A stretch of DNA of 33,879 nt from NCBI GenBank assembly GCA_938045325.1, contig CALINB010000024.1:1-33879 (forward strand), given 5' to 3'. Positions 10,566-30,173 of this stretch are shown here, in pieces. Under the pieces are notes generated by a model, which saw only the letters and a program-made list of their open reading frames with translations, was not told where the DNA came from and did no database searches. Made by a program: the position numbers and the translations under genes. Origin of the DNA: an uncultured Rhodospirillales bacterium. GTDB lineage: Bacteria; Pseudomonadota; Alphaproteobacteria; Rhodospirillales; CALINB01. Positions within the stretch are counted from its first letter, which is position 1. Each line of letters opens with the position of its first letter.

Positions 10566-11084
10566 TTAGTTTTTCGTCAGCGTTTCCATCACCGGGGTGA
10601 ACGCCTTATCGGCGACGGCTTCGAGCTCTTGCGCCGTCATGCTTTGGATCGGATGTTCGACCCACACGATTTCCGGATCGATGCCGAGGGTTTTCGCTTG
10701 GGACGCGGCGGCCACTTTAAATTCCGTGGTGGCGACGACCATGCCGGGAATGCCGAGTTTGTCGAGGTTGTTGATGTCATGCAAACTGCACGACGTACAG
10801 GAGCCTCAATCCGCTAAGGCGACGACCGCGACGTCCGCCTCCTTGACAATCGATTGCACGATATCGGGCGCTGCCGGCTTGCTGTTGCTCGCCTTGCGGT
10901 AGCGTTTGATCTTCATGCCCTGTGCGGTGAACCGGCTTTCCAGGTAATCGATGAATTCATCGCTGCGCTCTTTCGAGATATCCAGCAGCGCGATGGTCTT
11001 GCCGTTGAGATCGTCCGGCATGGGCACGCTTTTACGCGCGGATGTCGGCGCCTCGCTGGTCGGGTCTCGTAAAACGGTGCTCAT
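10566..11084 (-). CDS. UGSC-family selenoprotein, TGA-encoded Sec93
   Basis: One 172-codon frame contains a single in-frame TGA (10808-10806, codon 93) that I read as selenocysteine. The residues around it are ALAD-Sec-GSCTSC, exactly the Sec-Gly-Ser-Cys signature that names the UGSC (seleno)protein family known from marine metagenome surveys. Homology-like sequence continues in the same frame on both sides: SDEFIDYLESRF before, LDKLGIPGMVVATTEF and ADKAFTPVMETL after. A hairpin meeting bacterial SECIS rules lies 12-30 bases after the TGA. The fold is a small alpha/beta domain with the redox Sec at a strand end; Sec93, C96 and C99 are the likely reactive centre. SD-like GGGGAA precedes the ATG at 11084. 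It lies 36 bases downstream of a thioredoxin-fusion gene. Standard gene calling would give two pieces (10806-11084 and 10566-10784). The catalysed reaction is unknown. The sel genes it needs lie outside the window. Confidence 0.88.
10776..10794 (-). promoter_or_regulatory. Bacterial SECIS element
   Basis: In the mRNA the 19 bases fold as GUCGUGCA-GUU-UGCAUGAC: eight consecutive pairs (one G-U) closing a GUU loop whose first base is G. The loop starts 19 bases after the UGA. This fits the described bacterial SECIS rule of a short stem, a G at the top of the apical loop and a UGA-to-loop distance of about 16-37 bases. A competing 6-bp hairpin nearer the UGA (10788-10802) has an 11-base distance and fits less well. 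Confidence 0.75.
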
Positions 11085-11120: not shown

Positions 11121-12557
11121 TCAGAATTCCAAGGTTACCGGTTGGATTTCTTCGCGGTTCCGTCCGCCGCTCCAGCCGCCGATGATCGCCGAGATCTGGC
11201 CCGCCGGGCCGCCGCAGCGCACGACGAGGATGCCATGATCGCGCCAGTATTTGGGCACGTCGCGGTCCGCGTTTTCTTCGCCGATGCCTTCGCCGATGCC
11301 TTGCGCGCCGCGAATGAGGTCCTTGCCGGGCCGGGTGGTGTATTTATGCAGCGCTTCCTCGATTTCCGCGCGGCCCCAGCCGTCCTTTTGGAAAACCCGG
11401 TAGTGTTCGGGCGAGATGGCGAGGATGACATTCGCTTTTTCCGCCAGCTTCGGATGGCCTTCGTTGACGAGCTGCATCGCCATGGAGCGCGCCAGCTCGT
11501 CGGCCGTGCGCGCCTTGTGATCGATGATACCGGTAAGGCCGTGACCGTGATGTAGTGTCACCGCGTTACTGCCCGGCTTGCAGCCGCGCGCGACATGCAG
11601 CGGCGTCCAGTCTTCATCGGTTTCGTCTTCCGGAAAGCAGTAGGTGTACTTGCCCGGATTGCCGAACACGGCGCGATCAATCTCCTGTGGCCGGCCGCCG
11701 CCGACATTGCGCACGATGAGTTGTAGCGCCCTGCCAATCGTGGCATTGGCGCGGTTGCCTTGGCCCAAGCAGTTGCCCTTGGCGTTCATGCCGATGGCCT
11801 TGGTGATCGGCCCGTTCACCACAATCACCGGCCCCGCGAAGTTGAGCGTGCACAGCACCCCGTGCAGGGCGAACTTCGGCAAGAGAGCGGCTTCGAGGCA
11901 GGCCAGCACGACCGGCATGTATTCCGGTTTACAGCCGGCCATAACCGCATTGATCGCAACCTTTTCCACGGTGCATTCGATCAGGTCCGGCGGCACGATG
12001 CCGACGACCTCGTTCGGGTCGCGGTCCGTGCCTTGCAGCATGCGGATGATGCGGTCGTCCGTCGGCGGCACGATGGGAAGACCGTCGGTCCAGCCCATGT
12101 CGAATGCGTATTCGACGTCGTCATGCCAATCGCTGATATCATGGCCTTTGGACGTAAAAGTTTTTTCGCCGTAACGCGCTTCAAGCTTTTCGGCGATGAA
12201 CGGCTCGATGCTTTTCGAGCCGCAGCCGGGCTGGTTTTCCGGCAAGCCGTCGCCGAGTTTGTTAATGCCGCTGACCGCTTGCCACTCGTCTCTATTCCAT
12301 CCAAATGTGCGCGAGGTTTCCTTGCCGTTCTCGACGCGAATCAGCGTCGGCACGAATTCGATGTCGTGGCGAAAGGATTGCTCCAAGGAGCGGTCGTCGA
12401 TCACGCCGTCGAGATTGTCCGGAAATGTCGGGTCGTCTTGGCTGTAAACCGTAAGCGCGCCGGCGTCCGACAATTGTTTAAGCACCGGCTGCACCAACTC
12501 GCACGTCGGGCAATCGCGTTTCACGACCGCAATCAATCCGTCTTGTTGTTTTGGCAT
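11121..12557 (-). CDS. Thioredoxin-domain fusion protein associated with UGSC selenoprotein
   Basis: A 478-residue two-part protein. Residues 1-100 look like a thioredoxin fold with the redox motif CPTC (16-19) and a cis-proline FVPTL (68-72). The larger part (about 140-478) begins YAFDMGWTDGLPIVPPTDD (150-168), a conserved opening of an uncharacterised domain that I recall next to or fused with UGSC proteins. Further conserved-looking stretches are AINAVMAGCKPEYMPVVLA (201-219), VVNGPITKAIGMN (246-258), NRANATIGRALQLI and the C-terminal VVRCGGPAGQISAIIGGW (445-462). Cysteines at 112, 209, 236 and 448 could participate in thiol chemistry. It is probably cytoplasmic, with no signal peptide. 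Position directly before the selenoprotein suggests that its CPTC site keeps Sec93 reduced, or that the two form one reductase. The chemistry of the large domain is unknown. Confidence 0.75.
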   Translation of the reverse strand: MPKQQDGLIAVVKRDCPTCELVQPVLKQLSDAGALTVYSQDDPTFPDNLDGVIDDRSLEQSFRHDIEFVPTLIRVENGKETSRTFGWNRDEWQAVSGINKLGDGLPENQPGCGSKSIEPFIAEKLEARYGEKTFTSKGHDISDWHDDVEYAFDMGWTDGLPIVPPTDDRIIRMLQGTDRDPNEVVGIVPPDLIECTVEKVAINAVMAGCKPEYMPVVLACLEAALLPKFALHGVLCTLNFAGPVIVVNGPITKAIGMNAKGNCLGQGNRANATIGRALQLIVRNVGGGRPQEIDRAVFGNPGKYTYCFPEDETDEDWTPLHVARGCKPGSNAVTLHHGHGLTGIIDHKARTADELARSMAMQLVNEGHPKLAEKANVILAISPEHYRVFQKDGWGRAEIEEALHKYTTRPGKDLIRGAQGIGEGIGEENADRDVPKYWRDHGILVVRCGGPAGQISAIIGGWSGGRNREEIQPVTLEF

Positions 12558-12595: not shown

Positions 12596-14092
12596 TTATA
12601 ATTTAGAAAACGCCGCGGCGTTGCGCCCGGCCAGCTGACCGAAGGTCGAGCCGCAGACGAGGCCGGTGCCGGAGGCGTAGTTATTATAATAAATGCCGCC
12701 GACGATTTCGCCCGCGCAGTAAAGCCCGGGGATGACGTGTCCCCATTTGTCCTCGACCTCGGCTTCGGTGGTCGCTTTGAGGCCGCCGAAGCAGAACGTC
12801 ACGCCGGTGGTAACCTGGAAGGCCTCGAACGGCGGTTCGTCGAGTTTCTGCGCCCAGTTAGTTTTCTCGATGGCGAGGCCCTTGGTCGCCTTGCCGTCAT
12901 GCACGGAGGGATCGAACGGGATGTCGTCCTGGCACGCCGCGTTAAACTCGTGCGCGGTTTTCAGGAACGCTTCCGGGTTCACGCCTTCGAGTTGCGGTGC
13001 AAGCTCTTCCAAGCTGTTGGCCGTCGCCTTAGTGACGCGGGTGACCCGGTATTCGTCGCGCACCAACGGCATCACTTTTTGATCGAGAATTTGCCAGGCG
13101 AACTGTTTCGGCTGTTGCAGCACTTCCGCGCCGTACTTCGCATACGTGAAGCTGTGGAAATCCAGGCCTTCATCCAAGAACCGTTCACCGTTCGCGTTCA
13201 CCAAAATCGAAAACGGATAATTATGTTTTTGGAATAGATCGCCCATGGTGATGTCACCGTAGGTCGGCGCGTTCACATCCCATTGCACCGAATGGCATGC
13301 CGACCAGTGACCGGCCGGCATCGCGCCGATGTCCAGCGCCATGTTGATGCCTTGGCCCATGTTGTAGCGGGTACCGCGCACCTTCGCGAGTTCCCACTTC
13401 GGGCCTAAGTAGCGCACCCGCATTTCCGGGTTGGATTCGAAGCTGCCGCAGGCGAGGATCACGGCCTTGGCTTCGCACTTGATGTATTCCCGGCCGTGGC
13501 GGAACACGACGCCTTTAACGCGGTCGCCGTCGTAGATGAGTTCCCACGCCGTCGCTTCGTACACCACGGGGATGTTCCGCTCCTCGAGAATTTTATGCCA
13601 GGTTTCGACCATCTGTGTGCCGCCGCCCCAGACGCAGGCCGCAACGCCGCCGAAAATTTTGATCTTGCCGCCGACGGTGTAAGACTGGCGGCGCAGGTTC
13701 AGCGCAAAACGCATGCCGTATTCGCGCATACGAATAAGCGACTCGCGGCTTTGGCGCACCAGAATTTCGACCATGTCCGCATCGCAGCGGTAATCGGACA
13801 TGGTGAACAAATCATCGAAGTAACGGTCTTCGTCGTAAACGCCGACCTCGACGTTTTTGCGTTCTTCATCGGTGATGTCGACAACCAGCGGTTCCAAATC
13901 TTCCATGGTGGAATAGGGGAAACGCAACGCGCCGCCGGTAAAGGCGGTGTTGCCGCCGCGGTCATCAAGCGGGGCGGATTCCAGCATCAGGACCTTGGCG
14001 CCTTCGAGGTGGGCCGCCATGGCGGCGTTCGAGGCGGCATTGCCCGCGCCGATCACGATGACGTCGATATTTTTCAGGTCCAGATTTGCCAT
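12596..14092 (-). CDS. FAD-dependent oxidoreductase, TcuA/fumarate-reductase flavoprotein-like
   Basis: A 498-residue flavoprotein of the fumarate reductase/succinate dehydrogenase superfamily, closest by eye to FAD-dependent tricarballylate dehydrogenase (TcuA) proteins. The dinucleotide-binding motif VIGAGNAASNAA spans about 13-24, with the ribose-binding acidic residue E38. GGNTAFTGGALRF (46-58) is the FAD-contacting loop typical of the group. AVILACGSFESN marks the second FAD segment. GLYCAGEIVGG followed by YNNYASGTGLVCGSTFG marks the C-terminal FAD closure. No TcuB-type Fe-S electron-transfer partner is adjacent. It leads the minus-strand operon: 38 bases downstream is the thioredoxin fusion, then the selenoprotein. 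Substrate inference: a di- or tricarboxylate oxidised to its enoate, or the reverse. A direct electron link to the selenoprotein is speculative. Confidence 0.8.
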   Translation of the reverse strand: MANLDLKNIDVIVIGAGNAASNAAMAAHLEGAKVLMLESAPLDDRGGNTAFTGGALRFPYSTMEDLEPLVVDITDEERKNVEVGVYDEDRYFDDLFTMSDYRCDADMVEILVRQSRESLIRMREYGMRFALNLRRQSYTVGGKIKIFGGVAACVWGGGTQMVETWHKILEERNIPVVYEATAWELIYDGDRVKGVVFRHGREYIKCEAKAVILACGSFESNPEMRVRYLGPKWELAKVRGTRYNMGQGINMALDIGAMPAGHWSACHSVQWDVNAPTYGDITMGDLFQKHNYPFSILVNANGERFLDEGLDFHSFTYAKYGAEVLQQPKQFAWQILDQKVMPLVRDEYRVTRVTKATANSLEELAPQLEGVNPEAFLKTAHEFNAACQDDIPFDPSVHDGKATKGLAIEKTNWAQKLDEPPFEAFQVTTGVTFCFGGLKATTEAEVEDKWGHVIPGLYCAGEIVGGIYYNNYASGTGLVCGSTFGQLAGRNAAAFSKL

Positions 14093-18920: not shown

Positions 18921-19019
18921 ATCCTCATACTTCGAGATACCCTTTCGCCTCATCCTGAGGGGGCGCGTTAGCGCCTGTTTCGAAGGATAAGAGGCGAAGG
19001 GCCCCTCAGCATGAGGATT
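18921..19019. repeat. Palindromic intergenic repeat (copy 2)
   Basis: The outer arms ATCCTCAT (start) and ATGAGGAT (end) pair. Inside are ACTTCGAGA, CCTCATCCTGAGG, TTCGAAGGATAAG and CCTCAGCATGAGG. It lies between the hypothetical membrane protein and the first of the five tandem MmgE/PrpD genes. Confidence 0.8.
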
Positions 19020-19084
19020 TGCGGGTACTTTTTGAGCGGGCTGAAGTGTGCCAAAATAGTCACCTGATTATTAGGGAGGAAATT

Positions 19085-20470
19085 ATGGCGAAAACGGTCG
19101 CACAGGAACTCGCGGCCCGAATCAACGGGCTGCGTTACGAAGACTATCCGCAAGAGGCTATCGATTGGGCCAAGATCGCTGTGCTTGACACGCTCGGTGT
19201 GTCGCTCGCGGGCGCGCCCGAGGAAACCACGCAAATTCCGATGAAGGTATTGGGCGCAGCACAGCATGCCGGGCCGAGCCTGGTTTGGGGCAGCGGCACG
19301 CGCACCTCGCCGTTGGACGCCGCGTTGATTAACGGCGTCGCCGCGCACGCGCTCGATTACGACGATTGCCACGACACCATGGGCGGGCATCCCTCGGCGG
19401 CCGTGATCCCGAGCTGCCTGGCGCTGAGTGACGACGTTACGCTCACCGGGCGCGACTTCATCGAAGCTTTTATCGCCGGTTATGAGATGGAAACGCGCCT
19501 CGCGTCGGGCGTGCATTTCGAGCATTACATCAAGGGCTGGCATCCGACCGCGACCATGGGCACGTTTGGTGCGGCGGCGGCTTGCGGGCGCTTGCTCAAG
19601 CTTGATGAGAACACCCTGGCGACGGCTCTTGCGTTGTGCTGCTCGATGGCGGCCGGGGTGAAAGCAAACTTCGGCACTATGACCAAGCCGCTTCATGTGG
19701 GCCTTCTCAGCCGCAACGGTTTGTTCGCCGCCCTCATGGCCAAGGAAGGGTTCACCGCCAGCATGGAAGCGTTCGAGCACAAGCAAGGCTTCTTTATGGT
19801 CTACAACGGCGAAGGCACGTACGACATCGACAAGGTGTTGAGCAATTGGGGCAACCCGCTGCAAATTCTCGAGCCTGGCGTCGCCATCAAACAGTTTCCG
19901 TCCTGCGGCGGCACCCATTCCGCGGCCGATGCGGTGATCAAGCTCAAGAACGATCACAACCTTGCCGCGAATAATATCGAGAAAATCGAATCGAAAACCC
20001 ACGAGTGGCGTTTTAAGCACACCAACCGGCCCGATCCGAAAAGCGATCTCGATGCGAAGTTCAGCGTGCAGTATGTGATGTCGCGCGCCATGACGGACGG
20101 GGTGTTGAAGCTCGATCATTTCGAAAACGGCACCTTTGCCGAACCCGAAGTTCAACAAGTGCTCAAGCGCATCGAGTCGTCCTATCACAATGACGATGAC
20201 GACCGTTACAGCGCCTACGTCACCATCACGACGAAAGACGGCCGTAAGTTGGAGGAATACTTCTCGCGCGCCCGCGGCCGCGGCCCGGCCGTTGCCTTGT
20301 CGGCGGATGAGCTTAAAACCAAATTCGTGAATTGTGCATCGCGGGCCCTAACGGCCGAGCGGGTCGAGCAGTTGTACACGGCGTGCCAAACACTCGAAAC
20401 GCTGAATGATATGCGCGATCTAACGAGCTTAATGGAGACAGCGGCGGCAAACGTTCAAGCCGCGGAGTAA
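19085..20470 (+). CDS. MmgE/PrpD family protein (tandem array member 1)
   Basis: A 461-residue MmgE/PrpD protein. The ATG at 19085 has a strong SD (AGGGAGGA); an upstream in-frame ATG lies inside the repeat and is rejected. Active-site stretches are LDYDDCHDTMGGHPSAA (90-106), KGWHPTATMG, KANFGTMTKPLHVG and IKQFPSCGGTHSAAD. The last motif has Phe and Ser where most array members have Tyr/His and Cys, so its pocket is a distinct variant. It ends in VQAAE. By eye it is markedly more similar to the four other array members (20616, 25126, 27406, 28785) than to the copies at 8404 and 30354. Likely reaction: dehydration, hydration or decarboxylation of a hydroxy- or unsaturated di- or tricarboxylate. 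The substrate is unknown. Confidence 0.85.
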   Translation: MAKTVAQELAARINGLRYEDYPQEAIDWAKIAVLDTLGVSLAGAPEETTQIPMKVLGAAQHAGPSLVWGSGTRTSPLDAALINGVAAHALDYDDCHDTMGGHPSAAVIPSCLALSDDVTLTGRDFIEAFIAGYEMETRLASGVHFEHYIKGWHPTATMGTFGAAAACGRLLKLDENTLATALALCCSMAAGVKANFGTMTKPLHVGLLSRNGLFAALMAKEGFTASMEAFEHKQGFFMVYNGEGTYDIDKVLSNWGNPLQILEPGVAIKQFPSCGGTHSAADAVIKLKNDHNLAANNIEKIESKTHEWRFKHTNRPDPKSDLDAKFSVQYVMSRAMTDGVLKLDHFENGTFAEPEVQQVLKRIESSYHNDDDDRYSAYVTITTKDGRKLEEYFSRARGRGPAVALSADELKTKFVNCASRALTAERVEQLYTACQTLETLNDMRDLTSLMETAAANVQAAE

Positions 20471-20477
20471 GTGATTG

Positions 20478-20594
20478 TCATCCTTCGAGACGGCGGCTTT
20501 GCCGCCTCCTCAGGATGAGGTGTGAAAAATTCTCCTCATGCTGAGAGGTCGTACATCAAGTGTTTAAAAAGCGCGATCGTCTCGAAGTATGAGG
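20478..20594. repeat. Palindromic intergenic repeat (copy 3)
   Basis: A complete compound element filling the gap between array members 1 and 2. CATCCTTCGAGACGGCGG and CCGCCTCCTCAGGATGAGG form the left unit. CTCCTCATGCTGAGAGG and GATCGTCTCGAAGTATGAGG form the right unit. The right end reaches the SD region of the next gene. Confidence 0.85.
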
Positions 20595-20615
20595 GAAATA
20601 GAGGAGACGCAATCC

Positions 20616-21998
20616 ATGGGCATCGCCTTAGAAATTGCTAAACGCACAAACGCTCTTAAATATGAGACTTTCCCGGCCGATGCCATCCATTGGAGCAAGG
20701 TTGCCATCGCCGATGCGGTGGCCGTCTCGCTGGCCGGTTCGCGCGAAAATGCTTCCACCATTACCGCAAGCGTGCTGAACGCCGCCGCGATGCCGGGGCC
20801 GAGCCTGGTGTGGGGCACGAACGTGCGCACCCGCGCGCTCGAAGCCTCGTTGATCAACGGCACGTCGTGTCACGCGCTCGATTACGACGACACCAACAAC
20901 ACCAGCGGCGCGCATCCGACGTGCCCGATCCTGCCGGCCGCCATTGCGCTCGCCGAACAACTCGGCGCGTCCGGCAAGCAGATCATCGAAGCGTACGTTG
21001 CCGGGTTCGAAACCTTATCGCGGCTGTCCCAAGCGGTGCAGGTCGAGCACCACCATTACCGCAAGGGCTGGCATCCGACCGGCACACTCGGCCTGTTCGG
21101 CGCGGCGGCGGCCTGCGGGCGGCTATTAAGTCTATCGGACGAGCAACTTGCGACGGCCTTATCCATTTGCGCGTCCGAAGCCTGCGGCGTGAAATCGAAC
21201 TTCGGCACCTACGTGAAGCCGCTACATGCGGGGCTAGCCAACCGCAACGGGTTGTTTGCGGCCCTCATGGCAAAAGAGGGCTTCACCGCAAGTCCGGAAG
21301 CGTTCGAGCACAAGCAGGGTTTCTTCGCCGTCTATAACGGCCCCGGTCCGTTCGATGCAGACAAAGTGAAAGAGAACTGGGCCGACCCCCTCGAGGTCGT
21401 CGAGCCTTCCATGGGGATCAAGCAGTATCCCTGCTGCGGCAGTGTCATGCCGGTGATGGATCTCGCCATCAAAATGCGTAAGGAGCACAACCTCAAGCCC
21501 GATGACATTGTGCGCATCGAGCCGCAAACCCACGAGCGGCGCTTGGCCCACACCACCCGGCCCGATCCACGCAGTTCCTTGGATGCGAAATTCAGCGTCG
21601 AATACTGCACGGCGCGCGCCGTGCTTGACGGAACGATTGTGTTTTCGCAATTTGAAGGCGATGCCCATAACGATAAAACCGTGCGGAAGTTTATGGAGAA
21701 GATCACGGCAGTGCCGCACACCGACGACAACCACTACGGCGCGCACCTCATCGTGACTTTGAAAGACGGTACGGTTTTGAAGGAATACACGCCGAAAGCG
21801 AAGGGCCGCGGCCCCGATCATCCGTTAACCGCCGAAGAGCTTGAAAACAAATTCGTCATGTGTGCCGAACGCGCGTTGCCGCTCGAGCAGATTGAGTTGC
21901 TGTATCCGGCCTGTCAGGACTTCGAGGCCATCACCAATATTCGCGACTTCACCAAGCTGATGGAAGTTCATGCGGGCGCGCGCCAGGCCGCCGAGTGA
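20616..21998 (+). CDS. MmgE/PrpD family protein (tandem array member 2, most divergent)
   Basis: A 460-residue MmgE/PrpD protein, started at 20616 after GAGGAG. An in-frame ATG 27 bases upstream falls in the repeat arm and lacks an SD. It is the most divergent array member: the D-D-C-x-x-x-x-GGHPS region of the others reads YDDTNNTSGAHPTCP (90-104), KxNFGTMTKPLH reads KSNFGTYVKPLHAG, and the lysine motif is IKQYPCCGSVMPVMD with Val-Met in place of Thr-His. The His of the STH triplet, present in the four other members, is therefore lost. KGWHPTGTLG and the C-terminal QAAE are kept. These changes sit at positions expected near the substrate, so a different acid or a changed reaction is likely. 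It is the last gene before the decayed stretch at 22.0-22.4 kb. Confidence 0.85.
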   Translation: MGIALEIAKRTNALKYETFPADAIHWSKVAIADAVAVSLAGSRENASTITASVLNAAAMPGPSLVWGTNVRTRALEASLINGTSCHALDYDDTNNTSGAHPTCPILPAAIALAEQLGASGKQIIEAYVAGFETLSRLSQAVQVEHHHYRKGWHPTGTLGLFGAAAACGRLLSLSDEQLATALSICASEACGVKSNFGTYVKPLHAGLANRNGLFAALMAKEGFTASPEAFEHKQGFFAVYNGPGPFDADKVKENWADPLEVVEPSMGIKQYPCCGSVMPVMDLAIKMRKEHNLKPDDIVRIEPQTHERRLAHTTRPDPRSSLDAKFSVEYCTARAVLDGTIVFSQFEGDAHNDKTVRKFMEKITAVPHTDDNHYGAHLIVTLKDGTVLKEYTPKAKGRGPDHPLTAEELENKFVMCAERALPLEQIELLYPACQDFEAITNIRDFTKLMEVHAGARQAAE

Positions 21999-25125: not shown

Positions 25126-26499
25126 ATGGGTGTCGCCAAAGAAATCGCCACGCGTATCAATGCGCTGAAATACGAAGATTTTCCCGAAGAAGCCGTCAAT
25201 TGGGCCAAGGTGGCCACCGCCGATACCATCGGTGTCGCGCTGGCGGGCTCGCTTGAAGAAACCACTAAAATTCCCGAACGGGTATTGAATGCCGGCCAAA
25301 ACACGGGGCCGGCGCTCATCTGGGGCCGGTCGGGGCGCACCAACGCGCTTGATGCCGCGCTGATCAACGGCACCGCGGCGCACGCCTTCGATTTCGACGA
25401 TTGCTCGATGTCCTTGGGCGGCCATCCGTCGGCACCGATGATCCCGTCGGCTTTGGCCATTGGCGAGGAAATCGATGCGACCGGGCGCGACTTTATCGAG
25501 GCCTATGTCGCCGGTTACGAAACGGAAACCCGGATCGCGCGCGGCGTGCATCTGCATCACTACAAAAAGGGCTGGCATCCGACCGCGACGCTTGGCGTTT
25601 TCGGTTCCATCGCCGCCTGCGGAAAGCTCTTGAAACTCGATGACGACACCTTGGCGACGGCGCTCTCGATTGCGGTTTCCATGTCGGCCGGCGTGAAAGC
25701 GAACTTCGGCACCATGGTAAAGCCGCTGCATGTCGGGCTCTCGTCGCGCAACGGTTTGTTCGCGTGTCTCATGGCCAAGGAAGGCTTTACCGCCAGCGAA
25801 ATTGCGTTCGAACACAAACAAGGCTTTTTCGAAGTCTTCAACGGCGAAGGCACCTATAACGTCGATAAGATCCTTGCCGACTGGGGGAAACCGCTCGATA
25901 TCATCGATCCGGGCATCGCGATTAAGGCGCATCCATGTTGCGGCAGCACCCATCCGGTCGCCGACTCGGCCATCGCGTTGCATGACAAACTCAACCTGAC
26001 CCTGGATCAGATCGAAAAGGTCGAAACGGTCACCCACGAGCGCCGCTTGATGCATACCAACCGGCCCGATCCGCGTGGCGAGTTGGATGCGAAGTTCAGT
26101 GTGCAGTATGTCGCGTTGCGCGGCCTCATCGACGGCAAAATCGTGCTCGAACATTTTGAAAACGATGCGTACATGGAACCGGGCATTCGCAAGTTACTGG
26201 AGAACGTCACGGCGACGGCGCATACCGACGACAACCATTACAGCGGCACCGTCACCGTCACCCTGAAAGACGGCTCAGTACACTCGGACACCACGCCGTT
26301 GTGTCAGGGCCGCGGCGACAACCTCATTCCGCCGGAACGCCTGAAAGCCAAATACGACGATTGCGCCGCCCGCGTCCTGCCGAAGGATCAGGCGGAGAAG
26401 GTGCACGCGGTGATTTGGGATTTGGAAAACGCACAATCCGTTCGCGCGCTGACCGATGCGATGGCGTTGCCCGCCGACGCGGCACAAGCGGCGGAGTAA
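25126..26499 (+). CDS. MmgE/PrpD family protein (tandem array member 3)
   Basis: A 457-residue MmgE/PrpD protein with SD CAGGAGAGG. Active-site stretches are FDFDDCSMSLGGHPSAP (88-104), KGWHPTATLG, KANFGTMVKPLHVG and IKAHPCCGSTHPVADSA. In the lysine motif, Ala-His replace the Gln-Tyr of member 4. It ends in AQAAE. It is most similar by eye to member 4 (27406), sharing the start MxxAxxxAxRINALxYExFP and an upstream promoter block, so the pair probably arose from one duplication that carried its promoter. The terminase-like gene and hipA fragment now separate the two. It is divergent from the histidine kinase gene across a 190-base gap, which may hold the kinase promoter too. Confidence 0.85.
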   Translation: MGVAKEIATRINALKYEDFPEEAVNWAKVATADTIGVALAGSLEETTKIPERVLNAGQNTGPALIWGRSGRTNALDAALINGTAAHAFDFDDCSMSLGGHPSAPMIPSALAIGEEIDATGRDFIEAYVAGYETETRIARGVHLHHYKKGWHPTATLGVFGSIAACGKLLKLDDDTLATALSIAVSMSAGVKANFGTMVKPLHVGLSSRNGLFACLMAKEGFTASEIAFEHKQGFFEVFNGEGTYNVDKILADWGKPLDIIDPGIAIKAHPCCGSTHPVADSAIALHDKLNLTLDQIEKVETVTHERRLMHTNRPDPRGELDAKFSVQYVALRGLIDGKIVLEHFENDAYMEPGIRKLLENVTATAHTDDNHYSGTVTVTLKDGSVHSDTTPLCQGRGDNLIPPERLKAKYDDCAARVLPKDQAEKVHAVIWDLENAQSVRALTDAMALPADAAQAAE

Positions 26500-27282: not shown

Positions 27283-27342
27283 GCGTAACAATGCGGATTT
27301 AAAGTACATGGTGATATTCGTGTGCATTTCAAGAGCGTCCGC

Positions 27343-27371
27343 TTGCCCGGTTGGCCGAAATCCCCCAAAAT
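27343..27371 (+). promoter_or_regulatory. Putative sigma70-type promoter of MmgE/PrpD array member 4
   Basis: TTGCCC (27343-27348), 17-base spacer, CAAAAT (27366-27371), 34 bases before the ATG at 27406. It lies inside the 41-base block (27335-27375) shared with the leader of array member 3. Confidence 0.45.
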
Positions 27372-27405
27372 GCCGGTCTTAGATATTCAAGGTGAGGATG
27401 CTTCC

Positions 27406-28779
27406 ATGACCATTGCCCAGGATTTGGCCGCGCGGATTAACGCGCTGACTTACGAAAACTTTCCCAGTGAAGCCGTGCATTGGGCGAAAATCGCCATTGC
27501 CGATACCATCGGTGTCGCTTTGGCGGGCGCGGTGGAAGACACCGCAAAAATCCCCGAGCGGGTGCTGGGTGCTGGAAACATGCCGGGATCGAGTCTGGTT
27601 TGGGGGCGGTCGTATCGCACGCGCGCACTGGATGCGGCGTTAATTAACGGGACCGCGTCGCACGCGTTTGATTTCGACGATTGCTCGAATACTTTGGGTG
27701 GTCATCCGTCCGCCCCCATTGTACCGGTCGCGTTGGCCATCGGCGAAGAGGTCGGTGCGACGGGTCAAGAATATGTCGAGGCCTATATCGCCGGGTTCGA
27801 AGCCGAAACCCGGGTCGCGCGCGGCGTACACATGCACCATTACACCAAGGGCTGGCATCCGACGGCGACGCTGGGCATTTTCGGCGCCATTGCCGCGTGC
27901 GGCAAACTCTTGAAGCTGAACGACGATCAGCTGGCGACCGCGCTCGCCATCGGCGTGTCGGAAGCCGCCGGGGTGAAGGCGAACTTCGGCACCATGACCA
28001 AGCCGCTGCATGTTGGTTTGACGGCGCGCAACGGTTTGTTTGCCTGCCTCATGGCGAAAGAGGGCTTTACCGCGAGCATGGAAGCGTTCGAGCACAAACA
28101 AGGTTACCTCGAAGTCTTCAACGGTGCGGGCACGTACGATGTCGCCAAGATGCTCGACGGCTGGGGCGAGCCGCTCGACCTCATCGAGCCGGGTGTGATG
28201 ATTAAACAATATCCCTGTTGCGGCAGTACGCACATGGCGATCGATGCGGCCGTGCCGTTGCATGCAAAACTATCGCCGTCGGTTGAGGATATCGAAAAAA
28301 TCGAAATCGAAACCCACGAGCAACGCCTCGAGCATACCAACCGGCCCGATCCGCTCGGCGAATTGGCGGCGAAGTTCAGCGTGCAGTATGTCGTATGCCG
28401 CGCATTGATTGACGGCAAGGTCGTTCTCGAGAATTTCGAGAACGAGGCCTATATGGACCCGGGCATGCGTTCGCTGCTGCCGAAAGTGACGGCGGCCTCG
28501 CACACGGATGATCCCTATACCGGCATCGTGACGGTCACGCTGAAAGACGGCAGCACGCATACGGAACAGGCGCGCACGCCGTTCGGGCGCGGCCCGGAAA
28601 ATCCGATGAGCGCCGATGAGCTTAAAGCCAAGTTCATCGATTGTGCGACCCGGGTCTTGCCTTCGGACGCGGCCGAGCGGTTGCATGCCGCCTTGTGGGA
28701 TATTGAAAATTTGAAATCCGTCGGTGAGATCACGACGGCGATGGAGCTTCCGCCGGGTGCAGCACAAGCAGCGGAGTAG
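27406..28779 (+). CDS. MmgE/PrpD family protein (tandem array member 4)
   Basis: A 457-residue MmgE/PrpD protein. The ATG at 27406 follows GGTGAGGATG; an earlier in-frame ATG lies upstream of the putative promoter block and is rejected. Active-site stretches are FDFDDCSNTLGGHPSAP (88-104), KGWHPTATLG with H151, KPLH (199-202) and IKQYPCCGSTH with K267. It has the most consensus-like pocket of the array and is a good reference for comparison. It ends in AQAAE. The stop is followed only five bases later by the start of member 5, so those two are cotranscribed and possibly form a hetero-oligomer; characterised family members are homodimers. The substrate is unknown. Confidence 0.87.
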   Translation: MTIAQDLAARINALTYENFPSEAVHWAKIAIADTIGVALAGAVEDTAKIPERVLGAGNMPGSSLVWGRSYRTRALDAALINGTASHAFDFDDCSNTLGGHPSAPIVPVALAIGEEVGATGQEYVEAYIAGFEAETRVARGVHMHHYTKGWHPTATLGIFGAIAACGKLLKLNDDQLATALAIGVSEAAGVKANFGTMTKPLHVGLTARNGLFACLMAKEGFTASMEAFEHKQGYLEVFNGAGTYDVAKMLDGWGEPLDLIEPGVMIKQYPCCGSTHMAIDAAVPLHAKLSPSVEDIEKIEIETHEQRLEHTNRPDPLGELAAKFSVQYVVCRALIDGKVVLENFENEAYMDPGMRSLLPKVTAASHTDDPYTGIVTVTLKDGSTHTEQARTPFGRGPENPMSADELKAKFIDCATRVLPSDAAERLHAALWDIENLKSVGEITTAMELPPGAAQAAE

Positions 28780-28784
28780 ATAAC

Positions 28785-30173
28785 ATGACGTTCGCGCAGG
28801 AATTAGCGGCTCGCGTTAATGCGCTCACCTATGACGCGCTGCCGGCGGACGCTATACATTGGGCGAAGGCGGGTATTACCGATTGTATCGGTGTTGCGTT
28901 AGCCGGCTGCCAGGAGGCCACCGCTAAAATTCCAATGAAAGTTTTAGGTTCCGCACCCCAATCCGGACAGAGCTTGGTGTGGGGAAGTGCTTTGCGGATA
29001 TCGGCGCTCGATGCAGCCCTTCTGAATGGTACGGCGGCGCATGCGCTCGATTTTGACGACTGTTCGAACACCATGGGCGGCCATCCCTCGACGGTTTTGG
29101 TGCCGGGGGCTTTGGCGCTGGGTGACGATATCGGTGTTTCGGGCCGCGATTTCATCGAAGCTTATGTCGCCGGGTTTGAAGCGCAGGCAGCACTGTCGCG
29201 GGTCGTGCATTGGCATCATTACGAGAAAGGCTGGCACCCGACGGCAACCCTCGGTGTGTTTGGCGCGACGGTTGCGTGCGGGCGGTTGTTAAAGCTTTCG
29301 GACGAACAAATGACCACGGCGTTGGCGCTGGCGGTCTCTGAAGCCGCCGGGGTGAAAGCGAATTTCGGGTCCATGACCAAGCCCTTGCATGCGGGCCTGA
29401 CGGCGCGCAACGGATTGTTTGCCGCGCTCATGGCGAAAGAAGGGTTCACCGCCAACGCTGAAGCGTTCGAACACAAGCAAGGCTATTTCGAAGTCTTTAA
29501 CGGTACGGGCACCTACGATCCCGCGAAGGCTTTCGATAGCTGGGGCGAGCGCCTCGACATCGTGCATCCGGCGATTTGCATCAAGCAGCATCCGTGTTGC
29601 GCGAGCACGCATTCGTGCATTGATGCCGCTTCCGTGTTGCATGAATCCCTGAAGGAGCAACTCGGTGATATCGAAAAGATCGAAACGAATACCCATAAGT
29701 TTCGATTGGCGCACACCGACAAGCCCGATCCGAAAAGCGAGTTGGACGCGAAATTCAGTGTGCAGTATTGCACGGCGCGGGCGTTACAAGATGGTTACGT
29801 TGCGCTCGAGCACTTTGAAAACGCCGCTTACGACGAGACGGCGGTACGCGCGCTCATGGCGAAAACCACGTCGGTTCTTCTCGATGCGGATGATGAGTTC
29901 CTCGGCATCGTGCGTGTGACGTTGAAGGACGGGTCCGTGTACGAGGAGCAGGCCAGCGTGCCCTCGGGGCGCGGCCCCGATAACCCGATGACGGATGAAC
30001 AGTTCAAGAGCAAGTTCGCGAGTTGCGCCAAGCGTACGTTGCCGCTTGACGCAATCGATCCGCTTTTTGGCGCACTCGACGGTTTGGAGAACCTTAAATC
30101 CGTTGCCGAAATCACGGCGCTTTTGGAAAAGCCGCTCCTGAATGTCAAAGGGGCCGCCAAAGCCGCTGAGTGA
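28785..30173 (+). CDS. MmgE/PrpD family protein (tandem array member 5)
   Basis: A 462-residue MmgE/PrpD protein, coupled to member 4. Active-site stretches are LDFDDCSNTMGGHPSTV (88-104), KGWHPTATLGVFG, KANFGSMTKPLHAG and IKQHPCCASTHSCID. The lysine motif carries His in place of Tyr and Ala in place of Gly compared with member 4. Residues MKVLGSAPQSGQSLVWGS near 51-68 resemble array member 1 (MKVLGAAQHAGPSLVWGS) more than its direct neighbour, so the array was not built by simple stepwise duplication of adjacent genes. It ends in AAKAAE. Downstream is a large palindromic repeat that could end the transcript. Confidence 0.86.
   Translation: MTFAQELAARVNALTYDALPADAIHWAKAGITDCIGVALAGCQEATAKIPMKVLGSAPQSGQSLVWGSALRISALDAALLNGTAAHALDFDDCSNTMGGHPSTVLVPGALALGDDIGVSGRDFIEAYVAGFEAQAALSRVVHWHHYEKGWHPTATLGVFGATVACGRLLKLSDEQMTTALALAVSEAAGVKANFGSMTKPLHAGLTARNGLFAALMAKEGFTANAEAFEHKQGYFEVFNGTGTYDPAKAFDSWGERLDIVHPAICIKQHPCCASTHSCIDAASVLHESLKEQLGDIEKIETNTHKFRLAHTDKPDPKSELDAKFSVQYCTARALQDGYVALEHFENAAYDETAVRALMAKTTSVLLDADDEFLGIVRVTLKDGSVYEEQASVPSGRGPDNPMTDEQFKSKFASCAKRTLPLDAIDPLFGALDGLENLKSVAEITALLEKPLLNVKGAAKAAE

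Follow-up and report, generated by a model that had tools for sequence, protein, structure and literature searches.

A UGSC-family selenoprotein with an obligate partner gene in an uncultured Rhodospirillales bacterium: a candidate two-component selenium-dependent reductase

In aquatic metagenomes, UGSC proteins rank with the most abundant selenoproteins, and no reaction has been assigned to them in the literature searched. A survey published in 2008 counted 255 selenocysteine (Sec)-containing and 21 cysteine-containing members, noted a fusion with a domain that it named Unknown_1, and regarded the family as thioredoxin (Trx)-like in fold (PMC2398784). The described systems with which UGSC is compared here are protein B of glycine, sarcosine and betaine reductase (GrdB, GrdF and GrdH; PF07355) and PrdB of D-proline reductase (TIGR04483). 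The Sec motif of GrdB is UxxCxxC (PMC13188914). The gene under study is located on a 33,879-nucleotide contig of an uncultured Rhodospirillales bacterium (CALINB010000024.1), which is referred to as the window. Its product agrees with the UGSC family of the 2008 survey (PMC2398784) in sequence, Sec motif and length; what is added here is an obligate partner, a Trx-bearing clade and the prediction of a fold that is not Trx-like.

The UGSC gene lies on the minus strand (10566..11084), extends from an ATG at 11084 to a TAA at 10566-10568, and contains only one in-frame TGA, codon 93 at 10806-10808, in the context VVALAD-U-GSCTSC. Reading through this codon gives a product of 172 residues, including Sec93. 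The initial annotation, which left the strand unstated, had correctly recognized the split frame and the Sec-Gly-Ser-Cys-Thr-Ser-Cys surroundings, and its assignment to the UGSC family also holds. The read-through protein matches Pfam UGSC (PF24696) with an E-value of 8e-39 and 133.9 bits (cutoff 25), passes NCBIfam NF041046 (129.1 bits, cutoff 125), and displays the U/C-G-S-C motif as U93-G-S-C96. That a standard annotation would report two hypothetical fragments, as had been supposed, need not be the case, since the NCBI model NF041046 covers UGSC. The window gene is almost certainly a real bacterial selenoprotein gene, whose product belongs to this named and catalogued family.

The host genome is a 2.5-Mb metagenome-assembled genome (MAG) of 385 contigs, 82% complete and 6% contaminated, in which the window is contig C24. 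The worry that the contamination might make the window a stray contig is countered by the genome itself, which holds four more UGSC copies, three of them with a TGA. Contig C319 carries a divergent UGSC pair, one with Sec and the other a Cys-containing fusion (CGTS), contig C193 a copy with UGSS, and contig C64 a Sec UGSC fusion (L077, L078 and L079, respectively).

The draft state of this MAG could also suggest that the TGA arose by nonsense mutation or sequencing error, or serves as a genuine stop, which would leave a dead gene or a product of only 92 amino acids. This is refuted in practice by the homologues, by the conservation beyond the TGA and by the Sec machinery, and we regard it as having a negligible probability. 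Across 59 distinct homologous domains from many genomes, codon 93 is Sec in 54, Cys in five and never any other residue, which is the pattern that the initial annotation had proposed to look for. In these domains, invariance is limited to U/C93, G94 and F122; C96 is replaced by serine in three of them and C99 is replaced in 17. Conservation is better after the TGA than before it: the window protein shares 36-40% of its residues with six homologues in the part preceding the TGA and 53-56% in the part following it. Among these six close relatives, substitutions after the TGA fall mostly at third codon positions, numbering 85, 27 and 316 at positions 1, 2 and 3, respectively. Within the host's class, UGSC is carried by 38 of 385 genomes, and nearly every copy has exactly one in-frame TGA.

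With regard to the decoding machinery, the host possesses a tRNA-Sec (selC) with a UCA anticodon (79.7 bits), selA (599 bits) and selB (461 bits) side by side on contig C291, and selD (277 bits), and thus all four genes listed for verification in the initial annotation. SelB was detected in 33 of the 37 other UGSC genomes, versus 2 of 39 genomes without UGSC (Fisher p 1.3e-14). Among the UGSC genomes without SelB, two (G326 and G363) also lack selA and possess UGSC copies of the Cys type only, G338 has selA and tRNA-Sec in a draft assembly in which SelB was not found, and G011 is a MAG only 77% complete. G246 is a Cys-type UGSC genome, yet it has kept the Sec machinery. The UGSC tree requires about four Sec/Cys changes. 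In four genomes (G057, G091, G123 and G341), selB and a UGSC gene are separated by about 7 kb or less.

A changed genetic code, in which UGA would be read as an amino acid other than Sec, would equally leave the frame open, and an open frame is not by itself evidence for Sec. Nevertheless, tRNA-Sec, SelA, SelB and SelD are present together with a SECIS-type hairpin, and the replacement seen in homologues is cysteine and not tryptophan, making such a code extremely improbable.

The hairpin (10776..10794, minus strand) has 8 bp and a GUU loop at 10784-10786. The initial annotation had placed an 8-bp hairpin with a G-first loop 19 bases after the TGA; this distance is right for the loop, which is opened by the G, whereas the stem already starts 11 nt after the TGA. 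For the 56 nt running from 10810 to 10755, the folding energy is -16.5 kcal/mol (z = -2.7); the loop is located 17-19 nt after the TGA in 51 of the 54 Sec copies. Standard pairs occupy 88.5% of the pair cells in 39 distinct sequences, compared with 11-47% for slid controls. The covariation score was 0.236 versus 0.112 and was reached by none of 500 shuffles, although related sequences can beat shuffles without any structure. As kinship alone can have this effect, more weight is given to the slid control and to a protein change that keeps the stem, namely Cys99-Ser-Leu101 to Trp-Ser-Phe (TGC AGT TTG CA to TGG AGT TTC CA). Compared with synonymous codon shuffles, the signal is modest (mean z -1.3). 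An Rfam scan of the window gave no family at the gathering score, to which no meaning is attached. The five Cys copies retain 7, 6, 3, 4 and 0 of the 8 pairs; the first two (L030 and L058, both on the minus strand) may be remnants of a recent change from Sec to Cys. The hairpin is a conserved SECIS-type element with compensatory changes. Together with the homologues, the conservation after the TGA and the Sec machinery, it bears out the earlier judgement that recoding is likelier than a nonsense mutation.

Upstream of the UGSC gene by 36 bp lies a partner gene (11121..12557, minus strand), which is an addition to the initial annotation, where it had been missed. It encodes 478 amino acids, with an N-terminal Trx-like domain (12183..12557, minus strand; CPTC at residues 16-19, and VPT) and a large domain (11154..12173, minus strand). 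The large domain, of about 340 amino acids, was examined in 50 sequences including that of the window: none of them matches Pfam or the PDB, and D30, G31, P33, G121, R148, N156 and E182 (domain numbering) are invariant. PDB profile searches with UGSC and with the partner returned nothing convincing. In an independent search, the large domain was found in exactly the 38 of 385 genomes that carry UGSC and in none of the remaining 347. Of 104 scored copies, 99 are same-strand neighbours of a UGSC domain or fused to one, as counted with a profile that was built from UGSC neighbours and could favour neighbouring copies; the observed scores lay far above the search threshold, and the search yielded no solitary copies of a distant kind. 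The other five copies may be explained by short contigs and by the limit on the number of copies scored. Three large-domain copies (G065:C161, G195:C14 and G080:C136) have no UGSC match on the same contig, where UGSC was possibly missed or the copy is truly solitary.

Partner relatives adjoin or are fused to UGSC in nearly all loci fetched, in three architectures: Trx-large followed by UGSC, large followed by UGSC, and a UGSC-large fusion, which is often accompanied by a further large gene. This fused form probably corresponds to the 'UGSC/Unknown_1' protein of the 2008 ocean survey (PMC2398784). The Trx part is confined to one UGSC clade (21 rows, SH-aLRT 99), which includes the window, and CxxC is kept in every Trx-bearing member examined with a complete N-terminus. 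The partner is therefore obligate, as a neighbour or in a fusion, and UGSC practically never occurs without it. Given this arrangement, UGSC very probably represents the small, Sec-bearing subunit, and the partner the large subunit, of one two-component enzyme.

The structural model of UGSC (pLDDT 85) displays a five-stranded, doubly wound alpha/beta domain, in which Sec93 is placed between the third strand (residues 85-91) and a helix (residues 94-109). The model of the partner, built from a shallow alignment (pLDDT 42), was used for the Trx part only. Foldseek matched the UGSC model with flavodoxin-like proteins, including the FMN reductase SsuE and flavodoxins, at a TM score of about 0.5. 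The fold of UGSC is thus predicted to be flavodoxin-like and not that of thioredoxin. As the flavodoxin-like fold is common, no homology is claimed from these matches; the topology of the model is shared with flavodoxins and SsuE, but the likeness is one of fold alone, with no convincing sequence relation or sign of flavin binding.

These observations bear on the possibility that UGSC is a conventional thiol/selenol redox protein resembling thioredoxin or peroxiredoxin, with Sec and C96 acting as a redox pair on peroxides or disulfides. The UxxC motif, the Trx domain on the partner and the Trx-like fold supposed in the 2008 survey (PMC2398784) would be in keeping with such a role. In Trx-fold selenoproteins, however, the redox motif follows the first strand, whereas Sec follows strand 3 in the predicted flavodoxin-like domain of UGSC. 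Moreover, the UGSC and Trx profiles have no relation (hhalign, P 0.15), C96 is not invariant, and the obligate partner of about 340 amino acids is not accounted for. We consider this role unlikely.

A relation to protein B is suggested by several comparisons. The window protein contains the UxxCxxC motif of GrdB, as U93-G-S-C96-T-S-C99, and UGSC shares with GrdB, GrdF, GrdH and PrdB a strand-Sec-helix unit followed by a GIP-type turn and a strand. Several UGSC members match the NCBIfam GrdB, GrdF, GrdH and PrdB models weakly, below the cutoffs of those families; the window protein itself has no PF07355 match at E 0.1 and does not match TIGR04483. The Sec domain of UGSC also aligns with that of short, PrdB-like selenoproteins that bear UPxC and come from the same class (e.g. 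L101 and L114), with Sec on Sec over 63 columns (hhalign, P 1.3e-5). Control values were 0.15 for the Trx domain, 0.15 on reversal and, among 60 column shuffles, 1.1e-3 at best; masking Sec and Cys weakens the alignment to 1e-3, about the best shuffled score. In contrast to UGSC, the short PrdB-like proteins have the motif UPxC and clearly match both PF07355 and TIGR04483. One of them, L114 (G000:C331:5670-5879), is encoded with an in-frame TGA in the host genome, and of 289 genomes sampled from the class, 31 have PrdB-like UPxC matches. From these profile similarities, the Sec domain of UGSC is likely, though not proven, to be related to GrdB and PrdB.

At the level of the whole system, UGSC has in common with glycine, sarcosine and betaine reductase protein B and with PrdB a weak profile similarity and an organization in two subunits. 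The partners differ: that of UGSC is not of the GrdE/PrdA type by Pfam, so that a pyruvoyl-type partner is not supported, and its large domain has no relation to the PrdB-like profile. A further difference from the Grd and Prd systems is that UGSC occurs in alphaproteobacterial catabolic neighbourhoods.

Taken as a whole, the explanation that we favour, with moderate confidence, is that Sec-decoding UGSC and its neighbouring subunit constitute a two-component, protein-B-like selenium-dependent reductase. UGA93 is translated as Sec with the aid of the downstream hairpin and the host SelA, SelB, tRNA-Sec and SelD. The selenolate of U93 would then attack a substrate bound to the large subunit, with reductive cleavage of a bond as in protein B, leaving a selenenylsulfide of U93 with C96 or C99; the CPTC domain of the partner would reduce this Se-S bond and close the cycle. 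The protein-B-like reductive chemistry, proposed by analogy, is put forward tentatively, with a chance that we judge to be slightly short of even. The variability of both C96 and C99, which means that UGSC has no universal resolving cysteine, counts against this mechanism.

The same variability, with only U/C93, G94 and F122 invariant, would suit a Sec that serves as a non-redox nucleophile in a lyase or transferase, for which a resolving cysteine is not strictly needed and in which the Trx domain merely keeps Sec reduced. General catabolic neighbours such as CoA transferases, amidohydrolases and luciferase-like monooxygenases could also fit. The Trx domain fused in one clade and the UxxCxxC motif in most members nevertheless point to a turnover in which the selenol is oxidized, and we find a non-redox role rather improbable.

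With regard to the substrate of the proposed reductase, the window contains genes for a TcuA-type FAD-dependent dehydrogenase, PEP-mutase/ICL family proteins, aconitase, MmgE/PrpD and a CoA transferase, a neighbourhood that points to organic acid catabolism and names no substrate. The dehydrogenase gene (12596..14092, minus strand) lies 38 bp upstream of the partner gene, probably in the same operon; it was rejected as a fixed third component, a relative being near UGSC in only 1 of 41 other loci. CoA-transferase III genes lie near UGSC in several loci; genes of this kind being frequent, no functional meaning was assigned to them. Between 19019 and 31721, the window has at least five MmgE/PrpD-like genes (19019-20470, 20589-21998, 25126-26499, 27322-28779 and 28785-30173), the first called by profile and the rest by similarity to it. 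Such a local expansion is unusual; aconitase, LeuCD and two PEP-mutase/ICL family genes lie beside it. Across loci, the neighbours of UGSC are varied catabolic genes with no common substrate. The presence of several UGSC paralogues per genome, in differing catabolic neighbourhoods, suggests a family with varied substrates.

As far as the accessible literature goes, the obligate two-gene unit, the Trx-fused clade, the revision of the fold and the link to protein B are undescribed, and part of this may already be published. The fold prediction argues against the thioredoxin fold that has hitherto been assumed for UGSC. The partner, its Trx domain and the likeness to protein B mean that an 'unknown selenoprotein' can be approached by expressing two genes, its electron donor being defined. 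More speculatively, UGSC and its partner might represent an undescribed class of two-subunit selenium-dependent reductases, a diversified cousin of glycine and D-proline reductase that would contain its own thioredoxin as electron donor. A new type of large subunit would stand in place of the pyruvoyl subunit, and different paralogues would act on different small organic substrates.
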